The notes under the pieces are model-generated. The model made no database searches, had not been told where the DNA came from, and saw only the letters and a list, made by a program, of their open reading frames with translations. A DNA stretch of 64,000 nt. It comes from Protonemura montana. Taxonomy: Eukaryota > Arthropoda > Insecta > Plecoptera > Nemouridae. Location of the stretch: assembly GCA_947568835.1 (NCBI GenBank), contig OX387607.1:10927701-10991700 (forward strand), in the 5' to 3' direction. This document shows, one piece after another, positions 1 to 58,092 of the stretch (position 1 is its first letter; each line of letters opens with the position of its first letter). The position numbers were made by a program, and so were the translations under genes.

Positions 1-1410
1 AAAAAAATGTAACGAGAAATACGGCACACACAGATTATTACTGAAAATGAAATTTCTGAATCTAAATCCCGACTCGCGATGGATTGCGACAAACAAAATT
101 AAAAGAAACCGCCTCCAATTCCATTTAATTTTCTAGAAACAAAGATCTCATCGCCCAAAAAAACATTTATTTTTAACCCATACCAGACGCTTATAATCAG
201 CAACAACTCATTTCGCAACGAATCTACGCCAAGCTCCAGCCTGACAGCTTATTTTCCAGCCCACTCTCAAGTAAGCACACCCCGTTTTAAGTGATGAAAG
301 CGTCAGTTTCTCCCACTCCCTATTACTTTCCCTCGACGCCCAGCGTTAAGCACAATTTACGACTCGCTCTGATGAAAACCAACTTTCCTAATCATCAAAA
401 AAACCCATCGCGCAGACCAAAGCACCAGAAATCTTTCCCATCTTACATGTTTAACGTTAAAATAAATGTTTCCCAAAGCAGCATCCACTCTCTCTCTAGC
501 CTTCTAGACTACGTACCCCGACTCCGCCAGGTCAGCAGAGTAAAACGCCTCCACCTATCTACACCGACGATCACGGCAACTAGCCCACGATTATCATTTA
601 GAGTAGCTACGCGGTGGTCTTATCAGGCATCCACGTATAGACCGAGTACAACAGGTCAAAGGGTGCCCTACAGTTCATATTAATTTACCCCATGGCCAAC
701 ACGCGAGAAGCATTACGTTTTCGTGACGGGGGGAAAGGGAATAGGATTTTGGCTGGTTCTAAAGGGGTTGTAATTAGGCAGGTTAGTTGGCGAGGAAGCA
801 AAGAGGTGGAACCTATAGCCTTTGGTTGGTCGTGCTCTTCTGCCATGTAATGAGCTTAGGTAACTCAACAATATTATGCTCGGGCAGCTTGGTGCAATGT
901 TTGAGCGATAGACTAAGGTGATTGTCTTGCGTTTAAGTCGGGGCGTCTGACAGGGAAAGTTTTAACCGCGCTAAGGGTTAGGAGAGTGGGTGGGTGGAGG
1001 AACAGTTTAAGTCATTGGGATGAGAATGTGTGCTTTTAAACGAGATTGATGTGGTAAGTGAACAAAATTACTTGAAAATTGCTGCGTATTTGATATTCAG
1101 GATTTTTTTTGGAATATTTTATGATGTTTTAAAGTCATTAAGAAAGAGTGAAAGTAAAAAAGCAGAACCTATTCAGAATATTGTTAGTTTATTTTATTTT
1201 TTCACTTGTTCTTACATGCAGATTGCTGCAATTAAGATATGCAATACTCAATGCAAATTGATTGTTTAATGAAAACGACATAAAATGTAATTCATTGGAA
1301 TTAACTGCATAATTAGGCCATTTCAGACTGACAACTCACTAAATATAAATTAAAGAAATATTTTTTTTTTGCAATTGATTAATTTGCATTTAAATTCTTA
1401 CTGATTCGAA
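1..1410. other. intergenic sequence, no gene recognised
   Basis: I see no gene here. The longest open frame (294-683, plus, from its first ATG) is rich in Ser, Pro and Thr and shows no domain I recognise. Nothing like a splice or promoter context supports it, so I treat it as chance. The right part (about 700-1030) is G-rich on the plus strand, and 1030-1400 is AT-rich with T-runs. Confidence 0.5.
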
Positions 1411-1712
1411 AACCGGCCCGGTGGCTCTGGTGTAATAGTTTCGGTTAACGAGTGGATTTTGATGCTAATCTGGACTACGAAGGGGTAGAGAAATCTGGTG
1501 CCAGTGGGTACTTACTCCTGCCGAAGAGCACAAAGAGGACCACCGACCTACCACCGTCCCCTTGGAAGAACATCACAATTTAAACAACAGGATTCCTCTC
1601 CAAATTCATACTTTCGAGAGGTTCATAAGAAATACCTGACTCAGCGCAGCGTTACTTAACTTCGGCGATCTCACGAGAACCAAGGTTCCAACTCGCCAAA
1701 CCTTTTGGCTTC
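1411..1712 (-). repeat. 5S-derived SINE copy, 3'-truncated
   Basis: The sequence aligns in minus orientation with the best SINE copy at 57673-58092. The 5S-like head is at the right end, with plus-strand words such as 'cttcggcgatctcacgagaa' and 'ctcagcgcagcgttacttaa'. It is followed leftwards by the body words 'gaccaccgacctaccaccgt' and 'aaatctggtgccagtg'. The last part of the 3' tail (the GTGCGTCGTTAAAC region) is missing or unrecognisable. The copy is moderately diverged, so it is probably old. Confidence 0.75.
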
Positions 1713-2822: not shown

Positions 2823-4892
2823 TCATTTCTTCGTTTCACTCTGACCTATCACTCTGGCTTCTTCGAACAACGGCGAGGAGGAGAACACCCGCGTGGCTAC
2901 TGAGTGCTCAGACACGGGTACGAAGCAATGCAGTTTTTGCGTGCCGGGAATTGGCCGGGATGACGCAAATCGTGTGGCTAGCAGCTGTTCTGTGTCTTGG
3001 TGCTCCTCAATAGTTCCGAATGTGAAGTTGATGGTCGGGATGGCTTCGACCGCCCAATCGAAGAGTTGCCGGGGTGTTATTATTTGCGACTCGTAGGGGC
3101 GCTGAAGACTCGCCCGCGCTGCCAGCCGCTTGACCGTCCCTCCGACGCCGTCGCAGGCGCTCTTCCCATGTGACGTCGCCGTGAAATGCCACTCCACGTC
3201 GGCCCCAAAGTCTCTTTGATAGTGGCACAAGTTGGCAAAATTTTTCCTATTTTTATATTGCGAGGCTGCCCCATCAGAAAAAAAGAACATCTTCTTTATG
3301 GTCTGAAATTTATTGTGCAAAAAGCTCACGAGTTTTTTTATGAATAGATGCACTGCGACAGTGTTGTGGATCAAACTCTCGGAAATTACAACAAAGCTGA
3401 TGTGGCGCTCTTCCCCGCCCTCTTTGTAATATGCCACGAAGGGGTGGATGGTGGCGGACGCATTGTTCCAGTGGAACCCCTGGGCCTCGTCTTGTAGCAC
3501 GAACGCATAGTTTTCGGCAAAATCACAGATCACCAAAAACTCGCCGGGCAGGAGACCGCACTTGATGTCCGATTGGTGCGAAGATTGTTTTTTAGCAATA
3601 AAAGAGTGGCGGCACAGAGCAACTAATTTTGCACAAAAACTGTCCACGAATTCCTCGGATGAATCGATGTGCGTTTGCAGGGTGCATCGGTCGGTGCTCT
3701 CCCACTGCTTGTAGATAACATTGTCCACCATTTCGTCGTCCAGCAGTTGCGTGAGGCGCTCCTTTAACGGCTCGATGCCCGGGCACTCCTCACACTCGCC
3801 TAGATGGCATTCGGGGAGGGGACTGTCGCAGACCAACTGCTCAAGGCAGTCGTGGTAAGATGTTATCGGATAAGATTGGTCCACTGTCAACTTCGTCAAG
3901 TCGGCACCGATGATCATTAGCTTGACGTTTTGGTGGATAGTGCACACGCACACCGAATGAGTCCCACTGGCACCAGGCAACACACAGTTCTTCGGCCGCA
4001 GCTCTGCAAATTTTGAAAATCCTATTTTTTTATTAGGAAATTTGTCCTTGAATTGGGTATGGAGGTCCTTAAGGTTTGAGAGTACGAGCCTTTTCTGGAT
4101 GTGCACTCGAGTGCCGCTCGCCTCCTTGACGGAAACATAGTCTTTCTTGCCCGGCATGGCTCGGCTCACATCGTCTGAATTGTAAAAAGATTTTACTCGG
4201 TCAACTGTGGCTCGGTCAATTGTTTTTCCTGGCTTTGGATTCGGGGTTGACAAAATTCCCTTTTCCAGGACGAGCTTCTTTGCCTTGCGGACCATGCGCT
4301 CTGACGCTTGAAACTCTGCCACTGTTCGCCGGACAGAGCAGCTCTTCGGGAGGACAGTTAGAACATGCACTTTCTCGCTGTTGGATGTGGACGAGTGAAA
4401 CTTCTCTTTCAGCTGATTAATCATTTCGCGACCATCAGCTGAATCTTGGCCACTGTCGCTTTCAGCGTCGGAGGTAGTGGTTCTTTTAAGCGCACCTTCG
4501 AGTTTCTTCAATTTCTTCCTGGGATAACTGGATTGCGCCAACTTTTTCTTAACAATGGGCGATTGCCCTAGCTCCGCCAAGCCCACGTTGATGTTAGACA
4601 AAGCAGCGTCTTGTCGGAAAAAATATGCTTGACTCTCGGCGTTTGCACCACTGCAGCCGGGCTGCGAGTTGTCGCCATCGCTGGAGGTCGTCGTCGTCAC
4701 TGGAGAGTCGCTGCTGATTGGTTTTACGTAGTTATTTAAATCTTTCCTACATTTGGCACAGATTTTGCTTCCTACTGGAATCGAGGAAATCTTTTCAATC
4801 ATCCACGGCTGGACGTTGAGGAGAGACTTCAGCTGTGTGTGGGAAACGTGTTTAAAAGGATTGCAGCACTTCGCTCGAGTAAACGAGTCCAT
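2823..4892 (-). CDS. Sola-like transposase, 689 aa, intact
   Basis: This is the presumed transposase that cuts and pastes the surrounding element; it would act in the nucleus. I chose the ATG at 4892 (MDSFTR...); the frame is open for eight more codons upstream but has no ATG there. In this numbering: an N-terminal putative zinc-binding part (CC at 9-10, CAKC at 45-48); a Ser/Thr/Asp-rich linker about 60-155; a probable helix-turn-helix about 180-225; a Cys/His cluster with CVC at 315-317, H320 and several Cys from 349 to 370. The catalytic-looking region follows: D457 in LVICDFAENYAF, D540 in FFFSDGAASQYKN, and D581 in HGKSACDGVGGTVKR. The D-N-D spacing and the DGAASQYKN and HGKxxCDGxGGxxKR blocks are typical of a widespread animal transposase family usually filed as uncharacterised protein. 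There are no stops, frameshifts or visible introns. That these Asp residues are the catalytic triad is an inference; the family name is moderately sure. Confidence 0.85.
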   Translation of the reverse strand: MDSFTRAKCCNPFKHVSHTQLKSLLNVQPWMIEKISSIPVGSKICAKCRKDLNNYVKPISSDSPVTTTTSSDGDNSQPGCSGANAESQAYFFRQDAALSNINVGLAELGQSPIVKKKLAQSSYPRKKLKKLEGALKRTTTSDAESDSGQDSADGREMINQLKEKFHSSTSNSEKVHVLTVLPKSCSVRRTVAEFQASERMVRKAKKLVLEKGILSTPNPKPGKTIDRATVDRVKSFYNSDDVSRAMPGKKDYVSVKEASGTRVHIQKRLVLSNLKDLHTQFKDKFPNKKIGFSKFAELRPKNCVLPGASGTHSVCVCTIHQNVKLMIIGADLTKLTVDQSYPITSYHDCLEQLVCDSPLPECHLGECEECPGIEPLKERLTQLLDDEMVDNVIYKQWESTDRCTLQTHIDSSEEFVDSFCAKLVALCRHSFIAKKQSSHQSDIKCGLLPGEFLVICDFAENYAFVLQDEAQGFHWNNASATIHPFVAYYKEGGEERHISFVVISESLIHNTVAVHLFIKKLVSFLHNKFQTIKKMFFFSDGAASQYKNRKNFANLCHYQRDFGADVEWHFTATSHGKSACDGVGGTVKRLAARASLQRPYESQIITPRQLFDWAVEAIPTINFTFGTIEEHQDTEQLLATRFASSRPIPGTQKLHCFVPVSEHSVATRVFSSSPLFEEARVIGQSETKK

Positions 4893-5500
4893 GATTAAAT
4901 TACATAAAATATACAAAACTAAACGCTGTGATTATAACTATTAAATAAACTAGCTATTACTATACTATTGCTATTAATTAAAAATATGTTCACAAGACAC
5001 TTCCAACGGTATTATTAACACCCCTCAATTCACGACGCACAAAAATAATGCAAAGAAAACTTCGAATCACTCGTCTACTTGCACTGAGCTAAGTGTTTTG
5101 CGACTGACCAAGAAACCAATGCAGAAACAACTGAATTCGCTGTCTCACGGCTAAACTTCCGGCCATAAGGGTTGAAAAGAGAAACAGGTAGCAAGGGCTG
5201 CACGTGTTCGTGGTGGGATTCTTTAAATAGAAGTAGGTAAAATATGAATTTCGTCAGATCCGTGGTCATAATGCACGGCAGAAACACAGACCTAGTATCG
5301 TGACCAGAGCCACATATTATCATGTTTATAGCACAAAGCCCAAAAATATCACATCCTTATAATAAAATTTTAATTGCTCGACTCCATCCCAAATTCAAAT
5401 CTTTTCAAGCTTTATTTATGCTATGACAAACTTAGCATAATCGAATGCTTCTGAATTCAATTTGGTTCATGCTCAACAAACTATTTAGCAAAAGCACTTC
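4893..5500 (-). promoter_or_regulatory. 5' region of the transposase gene inside the transposon
   Basis: About 600 bp of AT-rich sequence separates the transposase ATG from the right TIR. It must contain the promoter or 5' UTR if the element is autonomous. Several TATA-like words are present but none is clearly placed, and an 82-codon minus-strand frame here (5075-5323) has no recognisable domain. Confidence 0.35.
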
Positions 5501-10514: not shown

Positions 10515-10848
10515 ATGATTGGATGACCATCAGACACGTGACCAGTTTGGGGGAGAAAGGATGTAGTTTAAAACAGCGATTTCATCAGCCTTGCTTAGCA
10601 ACCTCTTGAAAGCATGGATTTGTGAAGGAATCCTGTTGTTCGCGTTGTACCGTCCTTTGGAAGTAACATTAAGCCGGTGGTACCCTTGATGCTCTTTGAC
10701 TGGAATAGGCTACGTGCCGGCACCGAGTTTCCCTACTTTTTTCTTTGCAAGATGAGGTTCATCATTATACACAAATTAACCTACGCCATTAGACCAGTGC
10801 CGCAGGGTCCGTTGTCAAAAAATTTCGTCGTTAAAACCCACTAATAAA
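10515..10848 (+). repeat. 5S-derived SINE copy, head mostly lost
   Basis: From 'gattggatgaccatc' (remnant of the 5S C-box) through the body words 'cttgcttagcaacctcttga', 'gttgtaccgtcctttggaag' and 'taagccggtggta' to the tail 'gccattagaccagtgccgca' and 'gttgtcaaaaaatttcgtcg', this follows the consensus order in plus orientation. The first 70 or so bases of the 5S-like head are missing, as expected of a 5'-truncated retroposed copy. Confidence 0.8.
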
Positions 10849-14067: not shown

Positions 14068-14142
14068 ACATGCGTTGCTCAACTTCGGTGATCTCACGAG
14101 AACCGGTGTTTTCAACACTCCAAACCGTTCGGTTCTCCCCTT
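14068..14142 (-). repeat. 5S-like head of a SINE copy
   Basis: In minus orientation this is the 5S-related head: plus-strand 'gctcaacttcggtgatctca' then 'cgagaaccggtgttttcaac' and 'actccaaaccgttcgg'. It ends in the middle of the A-box region, and the body is missing. Directly to the right lies a SINE tail in the opposite orientation. Confidence 0.75.
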
Positions 14143-14154
14143 TAAGTTGGTAAG

Positions 14155-14265
14155 ATTAATCATGATCCTCATCATCATCCACTCATTAACCGACGCAATT
14201 AGACCAGTGCCAAATGATCAGATGTCAAAACAGTGCGTCGTTCAACCCCAATAATTATCATTAAT
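14155..14265 (+). repeat. SINE 3' tail fragment, opposite orientation to its neighbour
   Basis: 'cctcatcatcatccactcat', 'gacgcaattagaccagtgcc' and 'aaaacagtgcgtcgttcaac' are the consensus 3' end of the SINE, followed by 'cccaataattatca' as tail. It reads plus, whereas the head at 14068-14142 reads minus. The locus is therefore rearranged, either by an inversion during retroposition or by two independent insertions. Confidence 0.75.
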
Positions 14266-17098: not shown

Positions 17099-19319
17099 AA
17101 AAGTGTGCGAAACATGTGTCGTCCTAGGCACCCTTGCACAGAAATCGCATTGTTTTGGACTAATGCTCGGTCGCCGAGACGTACAATCTATCCCCGGCCG
17201 ACGCGCCGCGACGCCAGCATACGAATTCATTTTTGGCGTCGAAACGCCGCGAGACTCGGCGTCGCCGCGACGCCCAGCGTCGGTCCAGCGTCGTATGACG
17301 TCACGAACAGCGGGTCGCGCTGCGTGGCATAATATTTTACGTGCTAATATCTTATGAGTAGAAAAAGTCGACCATCATCGATAGCGTAGACAGCTATATT
17401 ATACAAAAAACCAAATAAAACAATGGTGTTTTCAGAAAGTGAATTCCTTTTAAAAAATAATTTTTAGAATACTTGTTCGCAAAATTTTGAAATTTGAGTT
17501 AAGTACGCTTCTGACATTTTACTTCGACAGTCTTTGAACTTTTACTCCGAAATACTTTTGGCAATTTCTCACTGTGCACCAGGAAAACTTGACCCAGTTC
17601 CTGTATTTGCATTTCATTTCAAAGAATTTCCACCTACAAAGTCCAGCAAAGCAGCGAATACTTCAAACCATATCCAATCTTGATGGCTTTCTGGACCTAG
17701 AATCTCAGCCTCCAGAAGCAAGACTACAGCGTCTCGTTTTCCCAACTAGTTCACTTGTCTTTTGAAAAGTCAGATTTTTTAGAGCGGATACGAAATTTGA
17801 GGATCTAATACGCCTTTTTACGAATTCTTTTTAATACCTCTTCTGTGCACGGCGACGACGCCACTGGCAAGAAACCAGCGTCGTATGTCACCCTCCAGGA
17901 ACGACGACAACGGCAACCTATTGCACTTGTACATCACCCCCTATTGCGCCGAACGTCCTCCGCGAGGAGTTCGGATGCCAATAAAAGAGGTAACAGATTA
18001 TTGTCGACGACTTTCAATGCTTATCGACTCGCCGAAATTAAATTTACAGTGTCGATAGACGGATACAGTTTAGCGAGCAACGTTCGATTTGCCGTGTCGA
18101 TAGACAGACAGCGTAGAAAGCATACATTGCGTCGGTCGTGTCTATAGCGGCCAGTAAATATGGCCGATGATTCAACTTTCCGTCAACCTTATGACTATTT
18201 TACTATTGTGTTTTTAGATTTAGTCCGTAACAGCGCTAGTGTTGCTGCTGAACGTTCTGCTGAACAAACGAGCCGGCAACACGTGGTGTTGTAGGTGCCT
18301 CCGAAGGCGTTTGCGATATACCTTTTTAAGATACCATTAGAATCAAATAATTACGGCTAAAATTATCAATAAATATATACTTTTCGTTGCGGGTAATATC
18401 GATGAAGATTAATTTAGAGTAAACTCGTCTTAAATGAGATTAGCCTGGGGGATAATAACAGAATGAGTTTTAACTCGGAAAAAGACGGTGACTCCACGTG
18501 TTCGTATAGTAGCAACTGCCGTTTTCGGCGTTCTTGTAGATCGGTATTTTTTTGTTGCGATTACAGAATAAAAATTAGCGCCAATACTTGATCAACTGTA
18601 TGCTTGCAGGTACCCAGTATTACAAAATTTTTCAAAATTGTCAAGCTCTTAACTTTCAGAAACAGCTGACTTTCACTGCATGTGATTGATATCACTTTCA
18701 CTTTATCTAGGAGTTACGAACATTTCGATACTAAACATAAAAATACTAGATAATTTGTCATTTTTTGGCGGATTTCATCCTGAAATGTCTGTTTCAAAAT
18801 AGAAAATCTGCCATGGCAATAAGAATGGATAGTTGATCCAGCAACGTTCCTCCTTTGACGGCTGCACGAAACTGATAAAAACATTTCTTTCCAAAGTTTT
18901 GTCAGTTCTATCGAATTGTCACACGGATGGGTCATACCGTCAATGCATCACTGCACAATGTGCATTCTATACAGTAATGCAGTCTTGCACAATGCAATCC
19001 ACCTAATGCACCCAATTCCATTTGGTGCAACGAATTTAGTATGCATGCATGACGAGGCTAGGCGACGGAAAATATTTTCGCTACACTCGTCGGAACTCGG
19101 TTGTTAAAAGAACCTCTTTTATGGTGAAAAATTGGGTCATTTTCTTTTTTTGCTTTGGTTGTACGATAGCTGGTTTTGAAAATGTCACCATGTCAGTGCT
19201 GGGGCCATTTTCATGGACATACAAACATCGAATTTCTTTAAAAATGCTTGCTTCTACTAGTTGACAAGAGTAAAGTCATTAATTGTTTTTGATGATTTAC
19301 GCTCCGAATGAAAGGATTG
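17099..19319. other. intergenic sequence with CpG-rich patches
   Basis: Patches at 17160-17330 and 17840-18160 are CpG-rich. The second contains three related words ('gtgtcgatagacggata', 'gtgtcgatagacagaca', 'gtgtctatagcgg') and is crossed by a 100-codon plus frame with no known domain. At 18945-19015 several TGCACAATG/GCATT words repeat. No gene was supported. Confidence 0.35.
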
Positions 19320-19590
19320 GTAGAAAGGTTAGAGAGATGCAAGCTAGCACAATAATTTCTCTCGCCTTGCTTATCAACCTCTCGACAGCAAAGATCATGG
19401 ATAGTTTCAGTTGAACCGCCCTTTGGAAGGAACGTTAAGCCGGTGGTCCACGTCGCTTTCATCCAAAGGATTCTTCTTCTTCTTTCTATTCTTTCTCTTT
19501 CTATTTCTCTTCTCATTTAAACGATGTCATTAGACCAATGTGAAATGACCAGTTGTTAAAAAATTGCATCGTAACACAATGGGAATCAAT
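19320..19590 (+). repeat. 5S-derived SINE copy without the 5S head
   Basis: The order of words follows the SINE body: 'agaaaggttagagagatgca', 'cttgcttatcaacctctcga', 'accgccctttggaaggaacg', 'taagccggtggtcca', then a TTC-rich expansion at about 19468-19512. The tail follows: 'gatgtcattagaccaatgtg' and 'aaaaaattgcatcgtaa'. It is moderately diverged and plus oriented. Confidence 0.75.
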
Positions 19591-33150: not shown

Positions 33151-33255
33151 CGAACGGCGTGACGTGTAAGAAAAGTTGGTTCTCGTGAGATCACCGAAGT
33201 TAAGCAACACTACGCTGGTTCAGATATTGGATTGATGACCATCGTACATATTGCC
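33151..33255 (+). repeat. 5S-like head of a SINE copy, interrupted
   Basis: 'cgaacggcgtgacg' is followed by 'ggttctcgtgagatcaccga', 'agttaagcaacactacgctg' and 'attggattgatgaccatc'. This is the 5S-derived head of the family, with the A-box kept and the C-box mutated. The matching body and tail resume at about 33501, so one SINE is probably split by the sequence between. Confidence 0.8.
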
Positions 33256-33500
33256 AGTTGTAATTATTATTATTAATATACTATGTAAAAAAGAAATATT
33301 TTCATTTCTGTCTTGACTTACAAAAGAATACACAGTTTACCCACCCACACACAAGCGAAGGCTTATGTAGGTTATTTTCCTTTTGTTTCCTATGTTTTTT
33401 TTTGTTTTTTTTGCCTATGTTAATTTTTTTTATGTAAATGTATGTAATTGTTCTCTGAATGGAAAATAAACATTAATTAATAACAAAAAAATAAAAAAAA
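33256..33500 (+). mobile_element. retroposon 3' end inserted into a SINE
   Basis: About 245 bp separates the head and tail of one SINE copy. It ends in 'ctgaatggaaaataaaca' followed by an A-rich tail ('aacaaaaaaataaaaaaaa', about 33482-33499), as expected of a 3' end made by target-primed reverse transcription. T-rich stretches fill the middle. No coding remnant was recognised, so the source element is unknown; a LINE 3' UTR is likely. No clear target duplication was found. Confidence 0.5.
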
Positions 33501-33630
33501 TCGGCTGAGAGGTGAGAGAGATGCAAATTAACTCATCTGAGTATTAACCACTAAACATTCATCATTTAACCAACGAAACTAGGCAAGTGCAACAAGCCAG
33601 CTTTCAAAACAGAGCGCCGTTTAACAAAAC
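33501..33630 (+). repeat. body and tail of the interrupted SINE copy
   Basis: 'tcggctgagaggtgagagag' followed by 'atgcaaatt' matches the sequence that follows the C-box in intact copies. 'ttaaccaacgaaactaggca', 'agtgcaacaagccag' and 'caaaacagagcgccgtttaa' match the 3' tail. The middle of the body is deleted. Confidence 0.65.
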
Positions 33631-34430
33631 AAATCATCAAATGCTGCTAAACATGATTCTGAACCCATATGAAAAATGTTCGCACAGTTTTTGAGCACAT
33701 TTTTTTACTCCGAACATGGATGTCAAATTTTTCTTTCAATCACTTAAACTCTCGTCACTGTCACGAATTTTTCCACGCGGACATGCACGATTCCGTCATG
33801 CCAACTTAACAACATTGCCACCCTCGAAGCGGGATATTTTTACACCATTTTGACGGCTGACCCTTTTTTTCGCGAGCTAGATTTCATTACATTAAAAGCA
33901 TACGACGAGCGCACCCTACACATTCGACCCACGGCCGGCTTGACCCCGATTCCAGCCGCTCGGGGAAAAATTCGTGTCATTTTGCGAAACATTGCCGGCG
34001 AGAACACGGCCCGATTGAAACACAGAGTTTTTGGATGTGGAACGACCAGCTTGAGAAACAAGATGGCTGCTGCATATTATATTGCACTATAATGGCAATT
34101 TACATACAGTTTGATGCCAAAATGTGACTGTTTTCCTAAAATTGTAAGTTGCATCTGCTTTGTGGTGACATTATGACCAAGAACTGCAATTTCATTTATT
34201 TTTTTTTTTTACCTGAACAATTAAAATCGGTAGAACATTTACTAATTGTAGAAGCATTTCCCAAAATGCATACAACGTTCTTACAAATAAATGAGAATAA
34301 TATACCAAATATCAAAATTGAGATTTTAGATTTTTAATAACCTTACTGCGTTCTGATTAAAATTTAGAGAAAATAAGGTAACAAAAAACCGCCATCTTTT
34401 TAACAGTAGCAACTCTGCACCCTACCACGG
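33631..34430. other. intergenic sequence with a GC-richer island
   Basis: At 33770-34080 the sequence is GC-richer and open on both strands (80 codons plus, 73 codons minus), ending in 'caagatggctgctgca', which fits a YY1/Pho motif. Neither frame matches a family I know. The plus frame starts at TTG, so an ATG-initiated gene is not supported. It is a candidate promoter-like or conserved element. Confidence 0.35.
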
Positions 34431-43264: not shown

Positions 43265-43635
43265 TCTCAACTTGCGTCGATGAATGATGAAGTGATGATT
43301 TGTACGCTGATGATCCTAACCTCAATTAGAAAGGAGGCGAGAAAACCCGGCGCCAGTGCCAGAAATAGTCTTACTTTTTTAGAAGATAATTTATTGGACC
43401 GCCGGCTTAACGCCCCCTTCGGAAAACAATACAAGTCAATCAACAAAATGCTTCTAAACATTCAAGACTAAAGAAGTAGTTGTACTGAAACTAATATCCT
43501 TCGAACTACTCTTCCGAAAAAACTGGTTAGATGTGTGATGGTCACCCATCAAAAATCTTGTTCAGATCAGTATTGCTTAAACTCGATTATCTCTACGGTG
43601 ATCAATTAGTTCAACACACCAAACCGTTTGGAAAA
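43265..43635 (-). repeat. 5S-derived SINE copy, diverged but nearly full length
   Basis: Left to right on the plus strand it reads the reverse of the SINE: 'gcgtcgatgaatgatgaagt' (tail), 'aggaggcgagaaaacccggc', 'ccgccggcttaacgccccct' (body), 'ggtcacccatcaaaaatctt' (C-box), 'agtattgcttaaactcgatt' (A-box), and 'caacacaccaaaccgtttgg' (5' end). The last bases of the tail are absent, and substitutions are frequent, so this is an old copy. Confidence 0.7.
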
Positions 43636-46925: not shown

Positions 46926-46962
46926 TTTGATAGCCAGAGAGTGGCCGACTCCAAGTGTACCA
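46926..46962 (+). repeat. short dispersed motif, copy 3
   Basis: 'ttgatagccagagagtggcc' followed by 'gactccaagtgtaccattg' matches the motif at 12706-12748 and 13017-13055. It lies about 20 bp before a SINE copy. Confidence 0.5.
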
Positions 46963-46983
46963 TTGTATTCAGAACCAATTCGT

Positions 46984-47295
46984 TTCGAAAAAGAGGTTGA
47001 AGAGATATAAGTAAGAACAACACTCTACTATCCTTGCTTTTCAACCTCTTCGACATCAAAGATTTGTGAAAAAATCTTGTTTTATAGTTTTACACCGTTC
47101 CGGAAGGAATGGGAAGTCGGTAGTCCCGTTGAGCTCTTCAACAGGAGTAGGCTATGTGACTGTCTCGGGTTTCTCCTTCCCCCTTCTAGGCAATGTAAGG
47201 TCAATTATCTTACCTATCAAACTCTTTCAGCCATTTCTTGTAACAAGTACCAAAAGGCCTGTTGTCAAAATAGTAAGTCCTTATACTAAACTCGG
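46984..47295 (+). repeat. 5S-derived SINE copy without the 5S head
   Basis: 'cgaaaaagaggttgaagaga', 'cttgcttttcaacctcttcg', 'caccgttccggaaggaatgg', 'caacaggagtaggctatgtg', 'gggtttctccttcccccttc' and 'aggcctgttgtcaaaatagt' follow the SINE body and tail order in plus orientation. The 5S-derived head is missing. Confidence 0.75.
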
Positions 47296-49511: not shown

Positions 49512-49894
49512 GACTCTACAGCTCAGCCCTAAGATGCACTGGTCGAATGGCGATAGTAAATGATTTGGTGACAATGAGGATAATGGCCAACTTAGCCTGG
49601 ACTAAAAGAGAGAGAGAGGAAACCCGGTGCCAGCGCGTAGCCTATCCTGGCGATAGGTACTAAGTGGACCACTTAAAGTAAATTTTGTACAAAAAGGTTC
49701 CTTCAAAAATCTTTGCTGAAGAGAGGTTGACAAGCAGAAAAAATTGCTCTAACTTTCATCCCTCTAACCTCTTTCCCAGGCATAATAATTCTTGAGTATC
49801 ATGGTCGTCCATCCAATACATGACGCAGCGCAGTGTTGCTTAAATTCTGTGATCTCACGAGAGCCGGTGTTTCCAACACGCCAAACCGTTCATT
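49512..49894 (-). repeat. 5S-derived SINE copy, nearly full length
   Basis: Reverse orientation. On the plus strand the tail side shows 'gcactggtcgaatggcgata'. The body shows 'ggaaacccggtgccagcgcg', 'gtggaccacttaaagtaaat' and 'ctgaagagaggttgacaagc'. The head shows 'gtcgtccatccaatacatga', 'cgcagcgcagtgttgcttaa', 'gtgatctcacgagagccggt' and 'caacacgccaaaccgttcat'. A- and C-box regions are recognisable with few changes. Confidence 0.85.
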
Positions 49895-51029
49895 AGGAGA
49901 AAATGTACTACATGGGTATCACACTGTTTTAGTACCACCATATTATTTATTTATAATAAAATTAATCCTCAATCTACATTGGCCACGCACGATAAAATAA
50001 TAATCTACCCAGCATGTCATTGCGCACACACCACTCGTCCTAACATTTAACGACCCCCCATAAAAATATCCATACACACAGAAAAAAACACAACACACAA
50101 GCTGTCCGCTAAATATTTACGGCCAATTCACCACCGTGGCACAAGACTTCAATCACCGTCCAAACAAACGAAATAAAAAAAAAAACTACCTCCCTCCCTT
50201 CACTATTTAACACCCCCGGTTAATAGTCCGTGTTTCCCAATATACATTCAACCCTGAACTATGGCCCGAAATTGAACCCCCAACTCCCATTCCACATATG
50301 TTTTATGTGCTTGTACCACCGATCGGGAGTATATATGTGTATGGCTTTAATGTCAGCCGTATAATATGGAATTCGAGTGCGTTTGACGAGTGTTTCCCAT
50401 TGCCTAGGACGGTTTTTTTTTACACATGAAGCCGTGAGTATAGCTTCATCCAGGATCGCTCACTGCAGTGTTTGTCAAGTATGTTGACCACGGTCCATTT
50501 GTTTCACGTCACTCGTTGTTATCGTGTGCTTGTGTATGTGTGTGTGAGGGTGAGTGTGTACGAGGAGGCCGTGACAGTCGACGGGATACCAACATAATAA
50601 AACATGACGGAGCGTTCGGGAGATATCGCTCTGATGGACTGTTTTGACAGGTCCGGGCATGGCCTATTGGAAAACTGTGTTATGAGGCGACAGAGGGCAG
50701 AGTTAATGAACGTTTAAAGGTAAAACAGGGTCGGTTGGTTTTTGTTTTCACGGTAAAGGTCAATATTCGAATGAACGTAGAGCCACTTTTACAATATCCT
50801 GTGAAAAAGACAATTGCCAGTTCATGATCACAGCCAATCAGATGGAATTTTTTTGTGGATTTTTTTAAGACCTTAACAACCCATACCTGGGACCAAAAAT
50901 AAGTAAAATTCTTTGGCCCAGTTTTCTAATATTTTGAACTCTTCGATAAAGTGGGAGTTTAATCAATTGCTGGAACGACTTCCAATTATACGCAGTGAAA
51001 TTAGGACTCTTTTCAATTAGAACCCCATT
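49895..51029. other. intergenic sequence
   Basis: C- and A-rich DNA at 50030-50330, GT-rich at 50520-50560. No gene was supported. A short stretch at 50812-50846 ('cacagccaatcagatgg') resembles part of the MITE arm at 51215-51302. Confidence 0.35.
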
Positions 51030-51302: not shown

Positions 51303-52019
51303 ACGTAATTACAAAAGTTTTTCAATCCAATTACAAGTATGACTAGAGGTTCAGATGAAAATGAAAGAATCAAATTGATTGTGATCATAGTAGGTACATA
51401 CCATGTCTATATCTGGCAGTTTAATGGACTTTAAGAAACTAGCTATAAGTTAGAATGTTCAAATGTTTTATTTATTTCTGTATTGCATTTGTTTTGTCTT
51501 ATCGCAGTTGTTTATTGGTCTGTTATGAAGTTATTATGATTGGTGTTGCCGTGGTTATGGGGGAAATTGATAGCTTGACCTGGAAAATGGTTCGGCGTGT
51601 GACTTTTCTCGTTGCGCGGAAAATTATGCATGTCATAACTTGAAGGGAAATAGAGTGCACCGCGGTCGCGATTTGGAGTGGAAATTGGATTCTCAATCTT
51701 GGGCGAGAAAATCGTGAATGGTGTTTTCTCTCGACTCGGCCACGGCATGGTCACTGGATGCTAGAATTTTATGTTCGCGCCTTATCTGAATCACTTGGGC
51801 TGTGGACCAAGTCCCAAAAGGCTTTACAAAAATATTGTGCGTTAAATTTTTCTTCACTGGGTGCACATGTCCGTCAATGTTATCAGCTTCGTTTCCTTGA
51901 AAAAATGCCAGTCATATTTTAGTATCTGAACCAGCTAACATGTTGTGTATTATTTTATTCAAGACATTAAATTTGTAGGTGACCATTTTATTTATCTTAA
52001 GTTTTGTTCGGGAGAAAGA
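51303..52019. other. intergenic sequence
   Basis: No gene or repeat recognised. Two overlapping short frames around 51455-51754 lie on opposite strands and match nothing known. Confidence 0.4.
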
Positions 52020-52325
52020 TTATATGAATTGCTCTAGATAACTTTTTTCGCATTGCTTATTAACCTCTTTTTGATAGCATAAATTTCTGCGACTATACTA
52101 TGGCTCAAGTTGTACCGTCCTTCGGAAGAGGCGCTAGGCTTTTGACCACCTTGGTGCTCGACAACGGGAGTAGGCTACGTAGGTACCTACACTGGGTTTC
52201 CCCTCTTCCATTCTGGGCTAGGTTAGGTTAATCGTCATATTTATAATGACCTACTCACTCATCGAAACCACAGAGCCTGTTGTCAAAAGAGTTTGTCATT
52301 CAGCTTACCAAACATTATTAATTGG
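52020..52325 (+). repeat. 5S-derived SINE copy without the 5S head
   Basis: 'attgcttattaacctctttt', 'gttgtaccgtccttcggaag', 'caacgggagtaggctacgta', 'gggtttcccctcttccattc', 'gggctaggttaggttaatcg' and 'agcctgttgtcaaaagagtt' follow the SINE body and tail in plus orientation. A 4- to 8-base duplication lies in 'gtaggtacctac'. The head is missing. Confidence 0.8.
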
Positions 52326-53545: not shown

Positions 53546-53805
53546 TCGGATGGTTTTGGCATGTTAAAAACACCGGTTCTCGTGAGATCACCGAAATTAA
53601 GGAACACTGTGCTGAGTCTGGTATTAAATGGTCCACCTTCAAACACATGACCAGTTCTGTTCGGAAGAGAGGTTGGAGAAGAGAGGTTGATGGGAGGAGA
53701 GAGGTCGCTCGTCTTGCTTATCTTGCTGAAAAACTGACAGATTGGATAATTAGAAGAATCATGTTGTCTGAGCTGTACCGTTTTTTTGAAGGGATTTTTT
53801 TGCAT
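53546..53805 (+). repeat. 5S-derived SINE copy, 3'-truncated
   Basis: The head is well kept: 'tcggatggttttggcatgtt', 'aaaacaccggttctcgtgag', 'atcaccgaaattaaggaaca', 'ctgtgctgagtctggta'. It is followed by 'gaccagttctgttcggaaga', 'gaggttggagaagagaggtt' and 'cttgcttatcttgctga'. It fades after 'gagctgtaccgtttttttga'. The C-box is mutated ('aaatggtccacc'). Confidence 0.8.
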
Positions 53806-57600: not shown

Positions 57601-57672
57601 TAACGAATGTACCAAGGTAATTCGTATCAGAAAGGCGGGAAAAACGCCATTTGTTGGCTTTGATTGACTATT
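54641..57672. other. intergenic sequence
   Basis: Frames of 154 codons (55723-56187, opening at TTG) and 162 codons (56191-56679) have no recognised domain and are probably chance. The patch 55510-55780 is CpG-rich. 'gataaaacgtc' occurs at 56905 and 56973. 'cgttttttgaaag' and 'cagggttttatg' nearby give a cluster of ATAAAA words suited to homeodomain binding. No gene was supported. Confidence 0.35.
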
Positions 57673-58092
57673 TGCGGTTTAACGACGCACTGTTTTGACA
57701 ACGGGTCCTGTGACACTGGTCTAATGGCGTCGGTGAATGAGCGGATAATTATGAGGATGATGTTGAACCTAACCTAGCAAAGAAAAGAGGAGGCGAAACC
57801 CGGTGCATGTAACCTACACCTGTCGATTAGTACCAAGGGGACCACCGGCTTAAAGTCCCGTCCGAGGGACGGTACAACTCAAATAGCACGATTCCGCCAC
57901 AAATCCATGCTGTCGAGAGGTTGATAAGCAAAGCAGGTTGATAATGAAGTTGATTTTCTAACTTTCATCCCTCCAACCTCTCTCCCGAACAGAAATGGTC
58001 ACCCATCCAGTACCTAACTCAGCGCAGTGTTGCTTAACTTCGGTGACCTTATGAGAACTGGTGTTTCCAACACGCCAAACTGTTCGGTTTTA
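57673..58092 (-). repeat. 5S-derived SINE, best full-length copy
   Basis: About 420 bp, reverse orientation. Its 5' part (about 57990-58092) reads on the minus strand 'gtttggcgtgttggaaacac', then 'ggtcaccgaagttaagcaac', 'actgcgctgagttaggtact' and 'ggatgggtgacc'. This follows animal 5S rRNA from about nucleotide 10 to 90. The central body (no known origin) holds 'ggttggagggatgaaagtta', 'cttatcaacctctcgacagc', 'gagttgtaccgtccctcgga' and 'taagccggtggtccccttgg'. The 3' part holds 'gacgccattagaccagtgtc' and 'caaaacagtgcgtcgttaaa'. SINEs with a 5S head are known as SINE3-type; this body is not one I recognise. The 3' part probably mimics a partner LINE. It has no coding capacity. Confidence 0.9.
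57997..58046 (-). promoter_or_regulatory. internal Pol III type 1 promoter of the SINE (A-box and C-box)
   Basis: On the minus strand 'gaagttaagcaacactgcgc' corresponds to the 5S A-box and 'ggatgggtgacc' to the C-box bound by TFIIIA, at about the spacing seen in 5S genes. These are the best-kept parts across the copies in this window. That fits their being needed for transcription. Confidence 0.65.

Follow-up and report, generated by a model that had tools for sequence, protein, structure and literature searches.

A 5S rRNA-headed SINE3-type family of Protonemura montana with internal 91-bp tandem arrays and a predicted 5S-like fold of its head

The stretch of 64,000 nucleotides of Protonemura montana DNA analyzed here (the window) carries, at positions 57673-58092, an element that begins like a 5S rRNA, and this raises the question of what the element is and what its 5S-like head serves. 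It is very probably a copy of a SINE3-type (5S-headed) non-autonomous retrotransposon, the head of which derives from a whole 5S rRNA gene. The features displayed by the family are a head that derives from 5S and retains boxes A and C, a common body, a conserved 3' end, a microsatellite tail, target site duplications (TSDs), and 5'-truncated copies. Alignment of 21 copies, that is the window copy and the next 20 of 40 scored genomic copies, gives a consensus of 442 bp with sharp ends, starting with ACCGAACGG and ending with GTCGTTAAACACCACAAA followed by (TAA)n. The twenty genomic copies, which were selected as best hits, are 95.3-99.3% identical to this consensus, and the conserved 3' end (ACGCCATTAGACCAGTG...GTGCGTCGTTAAAC) of the original prediction is found in it. 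The 3' tail consists of GTGCGTCGTTAAACACCA and TAA repeats, (ATCA)n taking the place of (TAA)n in several other, older copies. The consensus is devoid of a T4 run.

The original prediction would have been overturned if the 5S likeness vanished from the consensus; it becomes stronger there. The head and the host 5S gene are identical at 63 of 76 positions between residues 17 and 92, and their local alignment scores 100, as compared with 38 for the best of 500 shuffles and 16.5 for the remainder of the SINE. Identity amounts to 5 of 16 at positions 1-16 and to 30 of 33 at positions 17-49. With boxes A, IE, and C at the positions that we assume for them in the head, 13 of 15 bases agree with host 5S in box A, 3 of 6 in IE, and 12 of 13 in the part of box C, in keeping with the claim that the A- and C-boxes are retained, IE being poorly preserved. 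All 20 young copies scanned lie above the Rfam 5S cut-off over the full model (1-120; 47.8-66 bits), indicating that the 5S-derived head covers the entire 5S, the sequence outside the central block having diverged. The host 5S genes themselves score 108.7-117.5 bits, at the 47 places that were scored as the best among 52,711 candidates. At the start of contig C11 (L054, C11:1-9600), some of them occur in both orientations within a ~9.5-kb repeat that also holds a histone 3' stem-loop.

Within the window, the consensus identifies 13 merged loci, well above chance, as 114 kb of reversed sequence yields no match. The expectation of at least eleven window loci with a common structure is thereby borne out in number but not in completeness, since only seven of the 13 start inside the first 10 head bases and six do not; likewise, the full ~420-bp structure holds for the given copy, the other loci being gapped in the body or incomplete. 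The given copy (57669-58088, minus strand) is the sole one that approaches full length with a body free of large gaps. Its 5' end lies at 58088, its head at 58088-57983, followed by the body and by the 3' end near 57673; it spans consensus positions 1-434 at 84.6% identity, and Rfam assigns its head to 5S rRNA (47.6 bits, model 1-120, cut-off 38, at 57983-58088). It lacks 15 head bases (~positions 96-110) that are present in the other 20 aligned copies, as does one further copy elsewhere in the genome, and is therefore not the best representative of the family. Rfam reports four 5S-like stretches in the window, two of them above the cut-off. The second of these (43.8 bits, 53546-53665) belongs to a copy at 53546-53794 (plus strand, consensus 10-241) whose remainder is missing or decayed. 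The two stretches below the cut-off belong to a headed copy at 49536-49897 (minus strand, consensus 4-388; 34 bits) and to a head fragment at 14074-14133 (minus strand, consensus 1-60; 29.7 bits), which abuts a 3' fragment of opposite orientation at 14135-14261 (plus strand, consensus 312-439). Heads are also kept in an old copy at 43274-43631 (minus strand, consensus 2-374, 66%), in a copy with an internal deletion at 1400-1708 (minus strand, consensus 2-412), and in a fragment at 33151-33259 (plus strand, consensus 3-111), which may form one interrupted copy with the 3' fragment at 33566-33637 (plus strand, consensus 364-436). Four plus-strand copies are 5'-truncated: 10516-10847 (consensus 80-435), 19319-19578 (118-425), 46959-47286 (90-424), and 51978-52265 (86-371). 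Elsewhere in the window, positions 2823-4931 of the minus strand hold an open frame of 702 residues that returns no Pfam match at E 0.01.

The window belongs to a genome of 258 Mb in 34 contigs, in which the head pattern (at most 3 mismatches) matches 8,561 places, the 3'-end pattern (at most 3 mismatches) 10,759, and the body-start pattern (at most 1 mismatch) 7,555, as compared with 0, 4, and 0 matches for the respective controls, the one for the head being the reversed pattern. As these patterns are strict, the true copy number is probably larger. Ten 5-kb samples taken elsewhere contain four SINE loci, three of which are in one sample, so the window looks richer in SINEs than average, as far as so small a sample tells. 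Exact TSDs of at least 8 bp (8-14 bp, in a scan that lets the repeat reach up to 2 bases into the element) flank 12 of 21 copies and none of 420 mismatched flank pairs. Two more copies exhibit a 7-bp TSD, a length also reached by six of the 420 control pairs, and reading by eye adds probable 7-10 bp duplications in L013, L021, and L027 that the script had missed, but yields none in L026, L028, and the window copy. The length of the TSD thus varies among copies, and 5'-truncated copies are present.

Does the body point to another kind of head? The original prediction had named a body matching a described tRNA-headed SINE as another finding that would overturn it, and no tRNA-type head was seen with this body. 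ARAGORN reports no tRNA in the window, and inspection by eye upstream of four of the six headless window loci reveals no other head. The exact body-start pattern lies behind letters other than those of the 5S head at 28 places, where the six upstream letters have no common form except in local duplicates and near-SINE cases; an alternative head was rejected on these two sets. Outside this genome, the body motif has no match in collections of viral and genome contigs, a null result that says little since these collections hold few eukaryotes; for one motif match and 26 tail matches in viral contigs, the likeness to the SINE extends over no more than 21 bp. The motif GGGACGTTAAGCCG..GGTCCC presumably resembles the bodies of lepidopteran SINEs.

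In broad terms the element is of an ordinary class, but two of its features are unusual: the predicted 5S-like fold of its head and its internal 91-bp arrays. Lepidoptera and Tribolium are known to carry SINE3 elements, and the kind as such is therefore not new. 5S-headed SINEs have been reported in fish, mammals, Tribolium, and several Lepidoptera (PMC3272025, PMC8010984, PMC10886601), and in Aspergillus (PMC5063351); the published descriptions considered here treat the 5S head of such elements as a borrowed promoter. The rarity that had been ascribed to 5S-derived SINEs is overstated for insects, in which HaSE3, PxSE4, PxSE5, LaSE2, CsSE2, and further SINE3 families (PMC10886601) are on record. 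Like the present SINE, HaSE3, PxSE4, and PxSE5 possess a 5S-derived head, in which boxes A, IE, and C are stated for these three, and HaSE3 and PxSE5 are described as having a LINE-like 3' end (PMC3272025, PMC8010984). Compared by description only, PxSE4, PxSE5, LaSE2, and CsSE2 measure 294-389 bp and reach 532-4,415 copies (PMC8010984). The body of HaSE3 is shared with a tRNA-headed SINE (PMC3272025), whereas no other head was seen here for the body start. SINE3-1_TC of Tribolium, likened by name only, is another insect 5S-headed SINE (PMC3272025, PMC8010984). Cassandra and Ajax are also mobile elements with a captured 5S promoter (PMC10853983, PMC10886601), and Cassandra RNA is said to take 5S-like structures (PMC10853983); however, both are LTR elements carrying 5S in the LTR, while the present element shows no LTR, a variable TSD length, and a microsatellite tail. 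The main text of the HaSE3 paper is devoid of the word 'tandem' and uses 'secondary structure' for HaSE1 alone (PMC3272025), and a limited open-access search brought up no paper whose title or abstract deals with internal arrays, or with conservation of the 5S fold, in a 5S-headed SINE.

Predicted alone, head residues 1-121 fold with -43.3 kcal/mol, as compared with -43.4 for host 5S. The prediction places helices II and III and eight of the nine helix I pairs as in host 5S, the missing one being an end pair, and gives helices IV-V a similar layout in a shifted register. The head exceeds all 300 of its dinucleotide shuffles in stability (z -3.6), whereas 14 of 300 are as stable as host 5S (z -1.8). 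The head fold recurs in the MFE structure of the whole 442-nt SINE RNA, the overall stability of which is unremarkable (z -1.27; matched by 13 of 100 shuffles). A hairpin at the 3' end was discarded, being no better than shuffles in a region that folds worse than most of them (z +1.0). Helices I-III offer 26 comparable host pairs, of which 17 are unchanged and nine changed in the head; eight of the nine, in helices I-II, still pair, six with both sides changed. The probability of keeping at least eight is 0.0047 under uniform letter change and 0.042 with a transition bias, for a test based on nine pairs, one head-host comparison, and one alignment choice. Double changes would be fewer if helix I were aligned with gaps, so this pairing evidence is suggestive and not a proof.

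Four loci from a 19-place search of the tail, L076-L079, entered the sets of heads and 3' ends. After identical heads are collapsed and headless copies set aside, 37 distinct head copies remain. Pair 82-95 is G-C in 15 of these 37, A-T in 11, A-C in seven, G-T and G-G in one each, and is gapped in two, a distribution that would fit a two-sided change via an A-C step. The predicted energies differ little, with -45.3 for the older G82-C95 form, the most stable of the three, -43.3 for the youngest one (A-T), and -43.1 for the A-C intermediate. Read by eye, the first 100 box C matches, which lie mostly in arrays, comprise 89 G-C, seven A-C, two A-T, one G-T, and one T-C. Across the 37 copies, 1,376 of 1,502 cells pair at their predicted partners, as compared with 448-631 of ~1,500 when slid, an excess to be expected of a structure derived from the consensus itself. 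The modeled head fold and the changed but still paired positions of helices I-II hint at selection on a 5S-like RNA and not on the promoter alone.

The second unusual feature came to light through box C, whose pattern matches 16,025 places, about twice the count of heads, in runs with 91-bp steps. The seam, or unit junction, matches 23,969 places genome-wide (at most 1 mismatch; control 0). The array unit corresponds to consensus residues ~49-140, flanked by AAGTTA direct repeats 91 bp apart (49-54 and 140-145), and thus joins a part of 5S to the start of the SINE body and contains the Pol III boxes. Locus L063 comprises 5.5 copies of the unit (95% matching), and its array, like that of L004, continues into the SINE body and 3' end. 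Among the first 100 box C places on contig C1, 84 fall into 16 multi-unit clusters and 16 are single, although some of the latter (e.g. 267570) still show several seams. An exact SINE 3' end lies downstream on the same strand of eight of the 16 clusters (296-582 bp) and of four of the 16 singles; the opposite-strand control for clusters returns none, and as exact tails alone were counted, further arrays may have altered tails. The organization that defines a SINE-derived satellite, an array plus an end unit continuing to the SINE terminus, is hence found in these eight C1 clusters, and many of the arrays are thus SINE-internal expansions. The first 100 seams listed are all on C1, 58 of them, by eye, within its first 2.3 Mb. 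In the squamate sSats, too, a portion of a SINE is repeated in tandem and the last unit continues to the SINE end, but these satellites derive from Squam1-3 (PMC10702118), as opposed to the 5S head, the 91-bp unit with Pol III boxes, and the ~24,000 seams in 258 Mb observed here. Recombination or slippage between the AAGTTA repeats would multiply the control-region segment into tandem arrays within many copies, and either array-bearing RNAs may move or arrays may grow in place. The arrays connect an interspersed retrotransposon with a dispersed tandem repeat, and because each unit carries an internal control region, they could act as sinks for TFIIIA and TFIIIC or as sources of small RNAs.

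Two further arrangements on C1 involve such arrays. At C1:31759283-31759706 (L011/L004), a young SINE copy with a 12-bp TSD sits inside a 91-bp array of older SINE units. Three pairs of inverted arrays (8952526/8955993, 20984620/20988064, and 23320508/23323980) have inner seams 3,444-3,472 bp apart, and the first pair is enclosed by inverted 5S heads at 8952314 (+) and 8956294 (-). The pairs may represent a repeated segment or a foldback-like composite with two converging SINE copies.

A likely course of retrotransposition can be outlined as follows. RNA polymerase III would transcribe the SINE from the 5S-type promoter inside it; a partner LINE would supply the reverse transcriptase that recognizes the 3' end and primes cDNA at a nick, and the simple-repeat tail would form during priming. 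With less certainty than for these steps, the RNA head would be held in a 5S-like fold, which may give access to the partners of 5S RNA, among them ribosomal protein uL18 (L5), TFIIIA, and La. These partners may lend the RNA stability and closeness to ribosomes translating the LINE mRNA, by analogy with Alu, which uses SRP9/14. We therefore put forward, as a tentative proposal with clearly less than an even chance of being correct, that the SINE RNA is a selected 5S mimic, with a five-helix fold kept by paired changes and with loop A lost, which enters the uL18/L5, TFIIIA, and La pathway to ribosomes beside the nascent LINE protein, and that the element, through a 91-bp VNTR that includes the promoter, both copies itself and seeds Pol III control-region arrays genome-wide. 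In the 7SL-headed SINE1-1_EBu of hagfish, the fold of the parent RNA is kept with compensatory substitutions and read as a sign of constraint (PMC7245038); that case concerns the 7SL Alu domain and SRP9/14 and not 5S, and ours relies on one head-host comparison. A head with a predicted full 5S fold and changed but paired helices allows a direct test of whether 5S SINEs exploit 5S partners as Alu does SRP9/14.

The head might instead be kept for its Pol III internal control region, the 5S-like fold being a leftover or a coincidence, and we give this explanation slightly less than an even chance. It accounts for the retention of boxes A (13/15) and C (12/13), and it gains from the transition-biased simulation, which at best gives P = 0.042, and from pair 82-95, at which the older G-C head (-45.3) is predicted to be more stable than the youngest A-T one (-43.3) and the A-C form nearly equals the latter (-43.1). 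It fits less well with the best-kept block (17-49, 30/33), most of which precedes the classical control region that we take to cover ~45-97, though the insect 5S control region may extend further 5' than the vertebrate one. Nor does a promoter explain why helix I and loop A have diverged (5/16 at 1-16) with helix I still paired in eight of nine pairs, or why the single-sequence head fold beats 300 of 300 shuffles. Ajax does provide a precedent for an element that keeps just the promoter region, with no 5S fold predicted according to Kojima (PMC10886601).

A divergent 5S paralogue or a foreign 5S gene could also have been the source of the head, in which case the paired differences in helix I would date back to 5S genes instead of having arisen within the SINE. 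The strong departure of helix I and loop A from host 5S speaks for such an origin, and divergent 5S variants may exist beyond the 47 best candidates that were scored out of 52,711; however, loop A of the head reads UUUG instead of the conserved CAUA of the Rfam 5S consensus, without which a working 5S gene is unlikely, and block 17-49 matches the 5S of this very host at 30 of 33 positions. We regard this origin as unlikely. Less probable still is that the arrays came first, a SINE having later been built into a 91-bp satellite, or that both belong to a larger element whose inverted ends bear arrays. Seams (23,969) do outnumber heads (8,561), the three inverted pairs on C1 share a spacing of 3,444-3,472 bp between inner seams, and no clear TSD was seen in the three array-bearing copies whose flanks were read. 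Yet the unit joins part of 5S to the start of the SINE body, the aligned young copies with TSDs have a single unit, and the exact SINE 3' end is reached by eight of 16 mapped clusters, all of which speaks against this order.

Regarding the partner LINE, neither the tail patterns nor 16 reverse transcriptase flanks, covering few of the families present, reveal one that shares the SINE 3' end. Three patterns that exclude SINE letters upstream locate tail parts behind non-SINE letters at 69 places (9, 41, and 19). Upstream DNA was compared at 21 of these (9/9, 12/41, and 0/19), and the stretches they share are all SINE-derived; the compared places were rejected as a partner LINE, as their unshared remainder looks like 5'-truncated stumps. 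Stop-free frames upstream of tail places reach at most 160 residues, except for a simple-repeat frame of 315 residues (L071). At L062, several very short fragments resembling the SINE 3' end (TTTAACGACGC or similar) occur within a few hundred bases. The reverse transcriptase search with RVT_1 scored 150 of 1,781 candidates, few 3' ends of which were read. BLAST of the SINE tail against ten of these loci with 1.5-kb flanks (L117-L126, five of which look alike) returns at best a 22-bp AT-rich match (E 0.023), and a further locus, L127, gives just TAA-rich matches of up to 16 bp. The motif CGTCGTTAAA is absent from the 3' flanks of L128, L129, L131, L132, and L133, the last of which has an early stop, so that its true 3' end may not be shown. 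L130, read within its open frame, exhibits by eye an RNase H-like stretch. The abundant reverse transcriptase families with open frames of 1,239-1,261 residues are the best remaining partner candidates. The best 10 of the 150 scored reverse transcriptases are all located in the first 1 Mb of C11 or at C16:29.48-29.53 Mb, near the contig end, two regions that also hold 5S genes. As for other contig ends, the left end of C16 (L052) starts with TTAGG-type repeats, in line with the arthropod origin guessed in the original prediction, and the right end of C1 (L053) is a (TTTGG)n array as far as it was read.
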